The notes beneath the pieces were generated by a model that searched no databases, was not told the origin of the DNA, and saw nothing but the letters and a program-made list of their open reading frames with translations. This document shows positions 39,119-45,314 of a stretch of 64,000 nucleotides of DNA, piece after piece. Numbering within the stretch: the first letter of the stretch is position 1; each line of letters starts with the position of its first letter. The stretch comes from Pseudomonadota bacterium (GTDB taxonomy: Bacteria > Pseudomonadota > Gammaproteobacteria > Burkholderiales > Burkholderiaceae_C): the NCBI GenBank assembly GCA_021819435.1, contig JAKARB010000007.1:124001-188000 (forward strand), in the 5' to 3' direction. A program made the position numbers and the translations under genes.

Positions 39119-40033
39119 TCAGGCCGCCTCGCCGCCACCGGCAGCGCGCAACTTGTCCAGCAAGCCATTGAGTTCATCGAGGCTGCCGAACTGGATTGTG
39201 ACCTCACCCTGCTCGCCACGCACCGTCTTACGGCGGATGTGAATGCTCACTTGCGCCGTGAGCAAGTCAGAGAGCTCTTCTTCCAGGCGCAGCACGTCGC
39301 GCGTTTTCTCGCTCTTGACGCGCAGCAGCGGGGTCTGGCGACCCTGACCCTGGGCCTTGGCGACGAGCTTTTCGGTCTCGCGCACGTTGAGCTTCTTGGC
39401 CACCACCTCGGTGGCGGTGGTGATCTGCACGGCTTTGTCGAGCGGCAGCAGCGCGCGGGCGTGGCCCATGTCGAGGTCGCCGGCCATCAGCATGGACTGA
39501 ACGGGCTCGGCCAGGTTGAGCAGGCGCAGCAGGTTGCTGGCGGCGCTGCGCGAGCGGCCCACGGCCTGCGCAGCCTGCTCGTGCGTGAGTCCGAACTCGG
39601 CCGTCAGTCGCTGCAAGCCCTGGGCTTCTTCGAGCGGGTTGAGGTCTTCACGCTGGATGTTCTCGATCAGGGCCATGGCCGCAGCGGCCTCGTCGGGCAC
39701 GTCCTTGACGAGCACGGGCACCTCGGTCAGGCCGGCGAGCCTGGCGGCGCGTGAACGGCGTTCACCAGCGATGATCTCGTACTTGCCACCGCCCACCGGT
39801 CGCACCAGGATGGGCTGCATGATGCCCTGCGACTTGATGCTCTCGGCCAGCTCGTAGAGCGAGCCTTCGTCCATGCGCGTGCGCGGCTGGTACTTGCCGG
39901 GCTGCATGAGGTCGAGGCGCAGGGTCGAGGGCGTGCCCTCGCCCGCCTGGTTGATTGGGGTGATGTCGCTGACTTTGGGGCCCAGCAGGGCCTCCAGGCC
40001 CATGCCCAGGCCTTTGGATTTCTTGGTCGCCAT
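39119..40033 (-). CDS. parB: Chromosome partitioning protein ParB
   Basis: 'KGLGMGLEALLG', 'GKYQPRTRMDEGSLYELAESIKSQGIMQPILVRP', 'YEIIAGERRSRAARLAGL', HTH 'LTHEQAAQAVGRSRSAASNLLRLLNL'. Confidence 0.97.
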   Translation of the reverse strand: MATKKSKGLGMGLEALLGPKVSDITPINQAGEGTPSTLRLDLMQPGKYQPRTRMDEGSLYELAESIKSQGIMQPILVRPVGGGKYEIIAGERRSRAARLAGLTEVPVLVKDVPDEAAAAMALIENIQREDLNPLEEAQGLQRLTAEFGLTHEQAAQAVGRSRSAASNLLRLLNLAEPVQSMLMAGDLDMGHARALLPLDKAVQITTATEVVAKKLNVRETEKLVAKAQGQGRQTPLLRVKSEKTRDVLRLEEELSDLLTAQVSIHIRRKTVRGEQGEVTIQFGSLDELNGLLDKLRAAGGGEAA

Positions 40034-40111
40034 GGGCGTGATTGTCCGACGTTTCAGCGGCGATTCCGGCACGCCCCCAGCACGTCTTCTTGCGTCCGGC
40101 GAATCCGAATC

Positions 40112-40918
40112 TCAGGCCGAGGCCACCACCGTGCTGGCTGGCGCCTTGCGCCCGCTGGCCACGCGCTGGACCAGCTCCTGCGCGAAGGCCACGAAGGCTT
40201 GGGCGCCCTTTGAAGACGGGTCGAACACCACGCCAGGCAGCCCATAGCTGGGCGCCTCGGCCAGGCGCACGTTGCGCGGGATCACCGTGTCGAACACCTT
40301 GTCCCCGAAGTGCGCCTTGAGCTGGTCGCTGACCTGCTGCTGCAAGGTGATGCGCGGGTCGAACATGACTCGCAACAAGCCGATGAGTTGCAGTTCGCGG
40401 TTGAGGTTGGCGTGCACCTGCTTGACGGTGTTGACCAAATCGGTGAGGCCTTCGAGCGCGAAGTACTCGCATTGCATCGGCACGATCACGCCGTGGGCGC
40501 AGGTCAGGCCATTGAGCGTGAGCAGGCTCAGCGATGGCGGGCAGTCGATGAGCACGAAGTCGTAGTCGGCGGCCGTGGCTTCGATGGCCGTCTTCAGGCG
40601 GCGGTCGCGGCGCTCGAGGTTGACGAGCTCGACCTCGGCACCCGCGAGCTCGCGGTTGGCGCCCAGCACGTCGTAGCCGACCTTCTCGCTGCGCACGCGG
40701 GCCTCGGCGATGGTGGCGTCTTCGAGCAGCACATCGTAGACCGAGTGCGAGAGGGTGCGCTTGTCCACGCCCGAGCCCATCGTGGCGTTGCCCTGCGGAT
40801 CGAGGTCTACGATGAGCACGCGCTGGCCCACCTTGGCCAGGCCAGCGGCCAGGTTCACCGTGGTGGTCGTTTTGCCCACCCCACCCTTTTGGTTCGCGAT
40901 GCAGAAGATGTGCGGCAT
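40112..40918 (-). CDS. parA: Chromosome partitioning ATPase ParA (Soj)
   Basis: 'MPHIFCIANQKGGVGKTTTTVNLAAGLAKVGQRVLIVDLDPQGNATMGSG' deviant Walker A. Confidence 0.97.
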   Translation of the reverse strand: MPHIFCIANQKGGVGKTTTTVNLAAGLAKVGQRVLIVDLDPQGNATMGSGVDKRTLSHSVYDVLLEDATIAEARVRSEKVGYDVLGANRELAGAEVELVNLERRDRRLKTAIEATAADYDFVLIDCPPSLSLLTLNGLTCAHGVIVPMQCEYFALEGLTDLVNTVKQVHANLNRELQLIGLLRVMFDPRITLQQQVSDQLKAHFGDKVFDTVIPRNVRLAEAPSYGLPGVVFDPSSKGAQAFVAFAQELVQRVASGRKAPASTVVASA

Positions 40919-41015: not shown

Positions 41016-42107
41016 TCAGCCCTTCTTCGCGGCGGACGTGCTGGATCGCATGTCAACGCTTGGTCGTTTGGCGGAGCGCTGCGGGGCCTTGCGGGGCGCT
41101 TTCCGAGGGGTCTCTTGGCGGGCCAACTTGGCCGCCGCCTTGCCCTCCGCCGCTGGACGGTTTTTCATGTGAGCATGCTGCTCAAGCTGCTTGGCGTGGC
41201 CATTTGCTTGGACAGCGGCGGCATGCCGGCTCGGCTCCGCCTTTTCGCCTCGCGCAACCTTCTTTTCCTTGGATGGGCGACCTTCGGCGGCCCCGGTCGC
41301 TTTGCGATGGGTGGACGCCAGCCGATCAACCTTGGCTGGCTCTCCAGCTTGGTTGGCCTTGACAAAACGCGCTGCGCCAGAAGCGGGCTGGTTGCCCTTG
41401 GCTGCAAGCAGCCGCTGCGATGGCTTCGCGCGTTCTTGCGTCCGGCCATGGTCTTGCGCTGCATGCTTGCTCGCTGGGCGAGTGCGGCTTGTGGCCTCGG
41501 ACTCGCTGGGCCGATTCGAGCGCCCCGTCACGGCCTTGGCTTTTGCAAATGCTGGGTCTGACGACTTGTTGCTGGCGTGCCGTGTCGTCGAGTTTGGGGC
41601 CGACAGGGGTTCTTCACGAACACGACGCGTGGCCGTCGTGTCGCGGTGGAGCTTGTCTGGTGTGTGGGTTTTCGCAGCCCCGGCCTTTGCGTTTTCAGGT
41701 GCGCGTTCACGCTCCTGGCGAGGTGCCTGCTTGCGCCCCGCCACGCGTTCACCGGCAGCCAAATCTCGGACGCGTCGTGCCGACATGGTCTCCTCGCCGG
41801 TAGCCGACACCAGCCGCCGCAAGGGCTTCGGTGGCGTCGCGGTGGCCGGAGCATGCGAGCCCTCCTCCTTCGCCACGGTGCGCGCGGCCTCTTTGCTGGC
41901 CCCCGAGGCCTCTTCGTGGAACAGCGGTGTGTCCGGGGTCCAGCCCTTGGGGGGCGACACCTCCACCGCACGGCTCACCTCACCCGCGTCGGCAGCAGAC
42001 GCAGGGTGGGCGGCCAAACCAGCCATCACGCAAACAACCCACCACCCTGCGGCACGATGCGCCATTCGGCTCCGCACGCTCGGCTGACCATGTCGCTTCA
42101 AATTCAT
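41016..42107 (-). CDS. Hypothetical exported-type, Lys/Arg/Ala/Pro-rich low-complexity protein
   Basis: Signal-like 'MAHRAAGWWVVCVMAGLAAHPASAADA', then a long basic disordered segment; ATGA overlap with the rsmG stop. Confidence 0.6.
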   Translation of the reverse strand: MNLKRHGQPSVRSRMAHRAAGWWVVCVMAGLAAHPASAADAGEVSRAVEVSPPKGWTPDTPLFHEEASGASKEAARTVAKEEGSHAPATATPPKPLRRLVSATGEETMSARRVRDLAAGERVAGRKQAPRQERERAPENAKAGAAKTHTPDKLHRDTTATRRVREEPLSAPNSTTRHASNKSSDPAFAKAKAVTGRSNRPSESEATSRTRPASKHAAQDHGRTQERAKPSQRLLAAKGNQPASGAARFVKANQAGEPAKVDRLASTHRKATGAAEGRPSKEKKVARGEKAEPSRHAAAVQANGHAKQLEQHAHMKNRPAAEGKAAAKLARQETPRKAPRKAPQRSAKRPSVDMRSSTSAAKKG

Positions 42108-42961
42108 CCGCGAGTCCTCATCCAAACCAGGCAGCGCTCGGCATCCAGGCCTGGCACCTGCATTTGTTCCACGTGAAACACCTCGATGTCGGCGGGCAAA
42201 ACCGCCTGTTCATCGTCGGGCGATTTGCCTTTCATGGCCATCCAGACCCCACCAGGCGCCAAGCGCTCGCGCGTGAGCGAAACAAAATCAGCCAGGGACG
42301 CAAACGCCCGAGACGTGATGATGTCATGCTGAGAGTTCAGGTCTTCGACACGCGCGTGTTCCGCACGCAGGTTGGGCAAACGCAACTCCGCTGCCACTTG
42401 GCGGATGAAGGCGGCCTTCTTGCCCACCGTGTCCACGCAGCAGACCTGTACATCGGGCCGTGCGATGGCGAGCAAGACCCCGGGCAGACCACCACCACTG
42501 CCCACGTCGAGCAAGCGCACGGGGGCTTGACTGGGGGACGAGGCAGCGATTTTCTCGTTGATGTTTCCTGCTGAGGCGGGAGGGGCGCCCACACCACGCC
42601 CCGATCCATCGGCCCCGCGTTTTGCCAGGTGAGCCGCCAGATGCGGCAGCACCGCCAAGCAATCGCTGAGGTGGTGGGTGAACATCTCCGGCGCATCGCG
42701 CAAAGCGGTCAGGTTGTAGGTGCCGTTCCAGTGCGAGAGCATGCCCATGTAGTCTGCACAGCGCTGCCGCTGCGCCTCGTCCAGGCTGATCCCGAGGGAA
42801 TCCAACACAGGCCCCAGCGCGGCCAACCATTGCGCCTGAGACCAGTTGATGGCTCTGTGCACGTTTGATTTGGGAGCCTGACGAGGCTGTGGTCGAGACG
42901 CTGACGCACCACCGCCACCGACATGGTTGCTGTGACCGAGTGGTCGCCTGTATCCCTTCAT
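42104..42961 (-). CDS. rsmG: 16S rRNA (guanine527-N7)-methyltransferase RsmG (GidB)
   Basis: '[37 protein letters not shown]', '[44 protein letters not shown]', '[15 protein letters not shown]'; adjacent to mnmG. Confidence 0.96.
42165..42180. other. parS: parS-like ParB binding site (1 mismatch) within rsmG
   Basis: TGTTCCACGTGAAACA vs consensus TGTTTCACGTGAAACA. Confidence 0.82.
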
Positions 42962-45099
42962 GCCGCCTCTCCTGCAGCGTGAGTTTGGGAAGAACCGGGG
43001 GCAGGCGTGGCGCTGTCGGTTGCCCCGCCCCCGCCGGTGAAGCCCTTGAACCGCCCCTTCTTCAAGTGGATCAGCAGCAGCGAAATGGCCGCCGGCGTGA
43101 TCCCCGAAAGGCGTGCGGCCTGCCCCAAGGTTTCGGGCCGATGCTTGTTCAGCTTCTGCCGGGCCTCGTGACTGAGGGCGCTCACGGCCATGTAATCCAG
43201 ATCTTCGGGCAGGCGCAGATTCTCATAATGAGCCGCCCGCTCGACCTCTTCGTTCTGCTTGTCGATGTAGCCGGCGTACTTGATGCTGATTTCGACCTGC
43301 TCAATCACGGCCTCGGCCAACTTGGCGCCCAAAGCGCCCGTCAACGCGGCACGGCCCGTTGTTTCACGTGGAACATCGCCGATCTGGGGCGTCATCGACT
43401 TGCCCGTCTCAGCCCGGAGGCGCGCATGGTTGTCCGCAGCGACCTCCCCTGCCTCCGCCGCCTGGTCATAGTTCACCCCAGGTCGGCGCAACAAGTCAGC
43501 AAGGCTGTACTCACGCTCAAGGGCCTTGCCCACCAGTCTCTCAGCATCAGCCGCCGGCAAGGTGGCGGGCCGTACCCAGGTGTTGCGCAGCCAGGCTGTT
43601 TCACGTGAAACAGCGTCCCGCTTGCGGTTGAATGCATTCCAACGCCTGTCGTCCACCAGACCGATCTCACGACCCAGTTCAGTCAGACGCATGTCGGCGT
43701 TGTCCTCGCGCAGCTGCAGGCGGAATTCGGCACGGCTGGTGAACATGCGATAGGGCTCGGTCACGCCCTTGGTGATGAGGTCATCGACCAGCACGCCAAG
43801 GTAAGCCTGGTCGCGGCGCAGCGTGAAGGCGTCTTTGCCCTGCGCCTGCAAGGCAGCATTGACTCCGGCGTACAGGCCCTGCGCCGCCGCTTCTTCGTAA
43901 CCCGTCGTGCCGTTGATCTGACCGGCGAAGAACAGACCGCCAATGGCTTTGGTCTCGAAGGTGGACTTCAGCTCACGCGGGTCGAAGTAGTCGTACTCGA
44001 TGGCGTAGCCTGGCCGCAGGATGTAGGCGTTCTCCAGGCCAGGCATGGTGCGCAGCGCGCCCAGTTGGATGTCGAACGGCAGCGAGGTGCTGATCCCATT
44101 CGGGTAGAACTCGTTCGTCGTCAGGCCCTCGGGCTCCAGGAAGATCTGGTGCGAGTCCTTGTCGGCGAAACGGTTGATCTTGTCCTCGATGGAAGGGCAG
44201 TAGCGCGGCCCCACCCCTTCGATCACGCCGGTGAACATCGGGCTGCGGTCGAAGCCCGAGCGGATGATGTCGTGCGTGCGCTGGTTGGTGTGCGTGATCC
44301 AGCAAGGCAGTTGGCGAGGGTGCATCTCGGGCGTGCCCAGGAAGCTGAACACCGGCACCTCCGGGCCCGTGGGCGCCGACAGCGGCTCGCCGGGTGCGCC
44401 CCAGCCGCCCACCAGACCGACGCCATCCCCCGGCTGTTCGGTGAGCTTGCTGAAATCGATGCTGCGCCCGTCGATGCGCGGCGGCGTGCCGGTTTTCAGG
44501 CGCCCTTGCGGCAGCTTGAGTTCCTTCAAGCGACCGGACAGCGACACGGCCGGCGGGTCACCCGCCCGCCCAGCGCTGTAGTTGTTCAGCCCGACGTGGA
44601 TCTTCCCGTCCAGGAAGGTGCCGGCCGTCAACACCACCGCACGCGCGCGAAAACGCAACCCCACCTGCGTGACGGCACCCACCACCCGGGCCCCATCGCC
44701 ATCGCCCTCCACCATCAGGTCGTCCACCGCCTGCTGGAACAGCCACAGGTTTGGCTGGTTCTCCAGGCGACGGCGGATCGCGGCCTTGTAGAGGATGCGA
44801 TCGGCCTGGGCGCGGGTGGCCCGCACCGCCGGACCCTTGCTCGAATTGAGGATGCGGAACTGGATACCGCCTTCGTCGGTCGCCAGGCCCATGGCCCCCC
44901 CCAATGCGTCCACCTCTTTGACCAGGTGGCCCTTGCCGATGCCGCCGATCGACGGGTTGCAACTCATCTGGCCCAGCGTCTCGATGTTGTGGGTGAGCAG
45001 CAGCGTGGCGCAGCCCATGCGGGCCGCAGCCAGGGCGGCCTCGGTGCCGGCGTGGCCACCACCGACCACGATGACGTCAAATTCTTGGGGATACAGCAT
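42958..45099 (-). CDS. mnmG: tRNA uridine-5-carboxymethylaminomethyl modification enzyme MnmG (GidA)
   Basis: '[62 protein letters not shown]', '[41 protein letters not shown]'. Confidence 0.98.
43360..43375. other. parS: parS-like ParB binding site (1 mismatch) within mnmG
   Basis: TGTTTCACGTGGAACA; exact reverse complement of the site at 42165-42180. Confidence 0.83.
43597..43612. other. parS: parS ParB binding site (perfect consensus palindrome) within mnmG
   Basis: TGTTTCACGTGAAACA, perfect 16-bp palindrome. Confidence 0.95.
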
Positions 45100-45314
45100 G
45101 CGCACCTCGCTGGCAAAGCTCATGGGAGCCTGGGAGCCGGCCCGGATGCCAGCTCGCCAGCCCGCGCCGACTTTTGTCGGCTCTCGGGGTTGCCTCATTT
45201 TTGAGCAACCTTCCATTTTACCCAGGGCTCATGTCCTGTGGGACGCTCGATGCGCGATTCCGTGGCATCGCCACGGGCATCAGGCCCATGCCTGCCCGGC
45301 GCACAATCTCGCCC

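Follow-up and report, generated by a model that had tools for sequence, protein, structure and literature searches.

Why does a 16-bp word resembling the chromosomal centromere site parS occur three times inside two conserved RNA-modification genes that lie directly upstream of parA and parB? We examined this question in a stretch of 64,000 nucleotides of DNA from a Burkholderiales bacterium (the window), in the 4.41 Mb genome to which it belongs (a draft assembly in 27 contigs, without a closed map) and in related loci. The three sites are as follows.

42165–42180, TGTTCCACGTGAAACA on the plus strand: parS site 1, near the 3' end of rsmG; on the minus strand (G)TG TTT CAC GTG GAA CA(A), encoding V261-F-H-V-E-Q.
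43360–43375, TGTTTCACGTGGAACA on the plus strand: parS site 2, inside mnmG, in a linker of variable length; on the minus strand (T)GTT CCA CGT GAA ACA, encoding V615-P-R-E-T.
43597–43612: parS site 3, the perfect palindrome TGTTTCACGTGAAACA, inside mnmG; (T)GTT TCA CGT GAA ACA, encoding V536-S-R-E-T.

Exactly these three matches were recovered when the window was scanned at up to three mismatches, with one mismatch each in sites 1 and 2 and none in site 3, and together they span 1.45 kb. The positions and mismatches proposed in a first-pass annotation made from the sequence were therefore exact, its translations (VSRET and VPRET in MnmG, VFHVEQ in RsmG) were right, and its impression, gained by eye, that the window holds no other match was borne out even at this threshold. 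The genome search at up to two mismatches returned the same three sites and no further match in the 4.41 Mb, and the reversed control pattern gave 0 matches. Shuffled versions of the window are expected to contain 0.04 matches at up to three mismatches, and three were reached in 0 of 100 shuffles; from base composition, 0.0001 perfect sites and 0.006 sites at up to one mismatch are expected in the genome. A chance origin of the three sites is ruled out by these shuffles, the genome search and the base-composition estimate. All three conform to the 16-bp palindrome TGTTNCACGTGAAACA of chromosomal ParABS systems or to its variants at positions 1/16 and 5/12. They are chromosomal parS sites of the canonical type: site 3 is perfect, and sites 1 and 2 differ from it by the tolerated change at position 5/12. 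Sites 1 and 2 are reverse complements of each other because both bear this change of the known consensus; parS tolerates one internal change (at position 5 or 12), and the complementarity carries no additional information.

Transcription of the neighbourhood runs on the minus strand from mnmG through rsmG and an ORF that matched no family to parA and then parB.

42958–45216, minus strand: mnmG (gidA), matching TIGR00136 (867 bits) and E. coli MnmG structures; hosts sites 2 and 3.
42104–42961, minus strand: rsmG (gidB), matching TIGR00138 (145.9 bits); hosts site 1.
41016–42125, minus strand: ORF of 369 amino acids between rsmG and parA, overlapping the end of rsmG.
40112–40918, minus strand: parA, a deviant Walker ATPase and partition motor, matching AAA_31 (4.8e-62) and ParA families.
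39119–40072, minus strand: parB, the parS-binding CTP-dependent clamp, matching PF02195, PF17762, PF23552 and TIGR00180.

These matches uphold the gene identities given earlier for MnmG, RsmG, ParB and the AAA_31-type ParA. The description of the host genes as essential-type was too strong: both belong to the conserved housekeeping set, yet they are usually not essential and are dispensable in model bacteria. MnmG residues of about 587–630 form a linker, some 40 residues long, with no aligned counterpart in E. coli MnmG; it varies widely in length among relatives and houses the second parS. Compared with E. coli GidB, RsmG carries an insertion of about 35 residues (at about 110–148), between its N-terminal region and the methyltransferase core. 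The 369-residue ORF is rich in Ala, Lys and Arg and has a signal-peptide-like start; it matched no family in NCBIfam or Pfam, and could be either a gene particular to this lineage or an ORF that arose by chance.

The distance from the rsmG site is 1.25 kb to the start codon of parA and 2.1–3.0 kb to parB, as the annotated 1.2–3 kb had it. The two genes are linked, and the encoded ParB has the ParB_N, HTH (HTH_ParB) and C-terminal dimerisation (ParB_C) domains of chromosomal ParABS systems; its CTP-binding motif, GERRxRA, reads GERRSRA, and solved structures of its relatives include 7bnk and 6t1f. At the specificity positions it has R173 and G201 (Caulobacter numbering), the residues conserved in all parS-specific ParBs, while the Noc class has Q173 and R201 in the same numbering (PMC7383237). 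The window ParB thus lacks the specificity residues of Noc, the nucleoid-occlusion protein that acts at NBS sites; its score against the Noc model was 218 bits, under the model cut-off of 315 bits. The genome encodes one canonical ParB only. A second, weak ParB_N match (4.8e-7) was found in a 672-residue protein (contig C16, 277550–279568; locus L118, 3551–5569) that adjoins an integrase-like ORF, and is probably a ParB-like protein of a mobile element.

The GC skew near dnaA fluctuated too strongly for the origin to be located from it, so we relied on the dnaA gene and DnaA boxes. Some 1.1 kb past the end of the window, dnaA starts at contig position 189129; a perfect DnaA box lies at 189057, and further boxes with one mismatch are found between dnaA and the next ORF. 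With 21.5 kb between dnaA and site 3, the closest of the three, the parS cluster is origin-proximal, and the 27-contig draft holds no further copy of the word at up to two mismatches. The view of a compact cluster of about 1.45 kb near the origin thus stands.

We then considered the relatives. A match was present in 41 of 41 genomes of the first search. All 24 genomes of the same genus had at least one match, with a comparable cluster of two to three sites in most of those listed, two sites often lying about 190–260 bp apart. Each of 80 other Burkholderiales loci had at least one parS-like site in or near mnmG-rsmG-parAB. In the alignments, the codon column of site 3 held a parS in 56 of 81 MnmG genes (VSRET) and that of site 1 in 39 of 80 RsmG genes (FHVE), always in the same frame; the linker of MnmG carried a parS in 30 of 81 genes, at an alignment position that floats. 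These counts are of sequences and not of independent events, with an effective number lowered by phylogenetic non-independence, and close relatives are over-represented among loci picked by MnmG similarity. On an MnmG tree that excluded the site columns, a minimum of 8 changes was needed for seat 3, 3 for seat 1 and 11 for seat 2, on a quick build with many open forks. In the 44-row clade containing the window, 7 of 7 losses of the conserved mnmG seat fell on rows that have a linker site, a small and phylogenetically non-independent set.

Oxalobacteraceae, some Alcaligenaceae and Gallionellaceae rows lacked both the mnmG and the rsmG seats, and their parS lay upstream of mnmG; the exact seat thus moves within a constant neighbourhood. 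Among 300 genomes taken order-wide, strict context patterns were found in 18 (mnmG) and 9 (rsmG), which are undercounts, since the patterns require exact flanking codons and the rsmG pattern misses even the window. In-gene sites are absent from many Burkholderiales families, and no single in-gene seat is therefore indispensable. Two single loci stood out. In Pusillimonas sp. T2 (locus L115, 11425–11440) the seat-3 site is changed at position 15 (TGTTTCACGTGAAATA, VSREI) and three other sites lie upstream of mnmG; this suggests a centromere seat on its way to loss, or one gained in part. A Methylobacillus sp. MAG (L108) had all three seats and fell among Comamonadaceae-like rows in the MnmG tree, which is unexpected for Methylophilaceae; it is possibly a mislabelled or contaminated bin.

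The movement of the seat bears on a regulatory reading, in which the sites would act mainly as operators, with ParB or another CACGTG-binding regulator repressing or tuning the mnmG-rsmG-parAB region. The host genes do immediately precede parAB and share its strand, and in P. aeruginosa an excess of ParB reportedly potentiates repression of promoters next to parS3 and parS4 (PMC5521831). But here they sit deep in coding sequence, away from promoters, their seat is intergenic in some relatives and intragenic in others, and the full 16-bp word fits parS and not a generic E-box. We consider a mainly regulatory role very improbable.

A second alternative is that these peptides are required in MnmG and RsmG and that the likeness to parS is coincidental, as might be supposed for sites translated in frame in conserved genes. 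The codons argue otherwise. Among sequences chosen by peptide alone, VSRET at seat 3 was encoded by the identical 14 nt GTTTCACGTGAAAC in 55 of 55 cases, and VSRET at the main linker column by the same 14 nt in 22 of 22; for conserved MnmG pentapeptides, the share of the most common encoding had a median of 0.20 and reached 0.72 in the best one clear of any site. Despite six serine codons, the Ser of seat 3 was TCA in 56 of 56 genes, and among four-fold columns conserved among carriers (n=158) the third base was invariant only at the Val of the site. The codons thus frozen are rare ones in DNA of 67% GC (GTT 5.5%, TCA 8.6%, CGT 13% and ACA 6.6% of synonyms). Position 16, a four-fold degenerate position outside the essential core and equal in that respect to the inner third bases, varied in 8 of 56 genes; the inner third bases never did, nor did any four-fold or six-fold position within the 14 nt (55 of 55). 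Genes lacking the word carry VAREL, VALEL, IAREQ or similar peptides in the place of VSRET, and the linker peptide falls within the part of the protein left unaligned to E. coli MnmG. Protein constraint alone is refuted, as relatives encode VSRET or FHVE only with parS codons, and a by-product of protein conservation is the least probable of the readings, with next to no weight left to it.

Natural deviations from the perfect word were found at positions 1, 5, 12 and 16, plus the single change at 15. In surface plasmon resonance (SPR) in vitro with B. cenocepacia ParB on parSc1, symmetrical changes abolish binding, apart from those at 1/16 and a transition at 5/12 (PMC5450999), and this match indicates that the coding sequence varies where ParB tolerates change. 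The palindrome offers two usable reading frames, the third containing TGA, and both are used (VSRET in mnmG, FHVx in rsmG). Position 12 is G in each of the 39 rsmG carriers, so that Glu is encoded and not Lys, which we infer to reflect a preference of the protein. On this codon record, selection acts on the DNA itself and not on protein alone, because VSRET always uses the same 14 nt and variation stays at ParB-tolerated positions. The suggestion of dual selection on codon choice has thus found extreme codon conservation in its favour.

Our preferred reading, to which we give a probability of about 0.96, is that the three sites are the chromosome's ParB-loaded parS centromere, kept inside mnmG and rsmG because the DNA word and the encoded protein are selected together. 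It draws on the sites, which are unique in the genome and conserved in position and codons, on the parS-class ParB and on the proximity to the origin. Following established ParABS biology, from which loading, spreading, CTP-dependent sliding, ParA transport and SMC recruitment are taken, ParB encoded 2–3 kb away would load onto the three sites, close as a CTP-bound clamp and spread across mnmG-rsmG-parAB. It would then be the cargo that ParA moves, separating the two replicated origins, and it probably loads SMC as well. The sites would have stayed within mnmG and rsmG during the divergence of Burkholderiales families.

A wider reading, for which we see even odds, is that the centromere wrote amino acids into housekeeping proteins. 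VSRET would have replaced an ancestral peptide of the VAREL or IAREQ type and entered the variable linker as a tag because parS needs those bases, and the seats would be kept or lost as units of DNA and peptide across Burkholderiales; the direction of the peptide change depends on the tree. The point of note is long-lived dual coding in which parS would also fix amino acids. The locus offers a clean natural case of one DNA stretch under two selections, as codons of a tRNA- and an rRNA-modifying enzyme and as a centromere. A frozen word in differing frames and seats also provides an evolutionary readout of the parS bases that ParB requires, in agreement with the in vitro data. It is likewise a warning that the apparent conservation of MnmG residues such as VSRET need not stem from what the enzyme does. 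Our literature search found no dedicated report on parS with mnmG or rsmG; Livny et al. 2007, reportedly the original survey of parS distribution, was outside its reach.

Comparison with known systems places the locus among familiar ones. Chromosome 1 of B. cenocepacia (parSc1) uses the same 16-bp word, and the positions tolerated there in SPR, 1/16 and 5/12, are those that vary naturally here; two parS sites are tabulated for it (PMC7022226), against three here, all in coding sequence, and the homologous mnmG site is present in the Burkholderia loci (L085, L096, L097). In Pseudomonas the motif is fixed as TGTTCCACGTGGAACA (PMC5450999), in contrast to the T5/A12 form with one-arm variants found here. 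The consensus of B. subtilis, TGTTNCACGTGAAACA, with sites near oriC (PMC7022226), is fitted on one strand by both imperfect sites, but B. subtilis has 10 sites, 8 of them in the origin domain, compared with three in 1.45 kb here. The parS sites of P. aeruginosa form an origin-proximal cluster, as here, and nine of its ten are predicted within coding sequences (PMC4368675). Intragenic parS is thus an already known and common kind, and the arrangement described here is not unusual.
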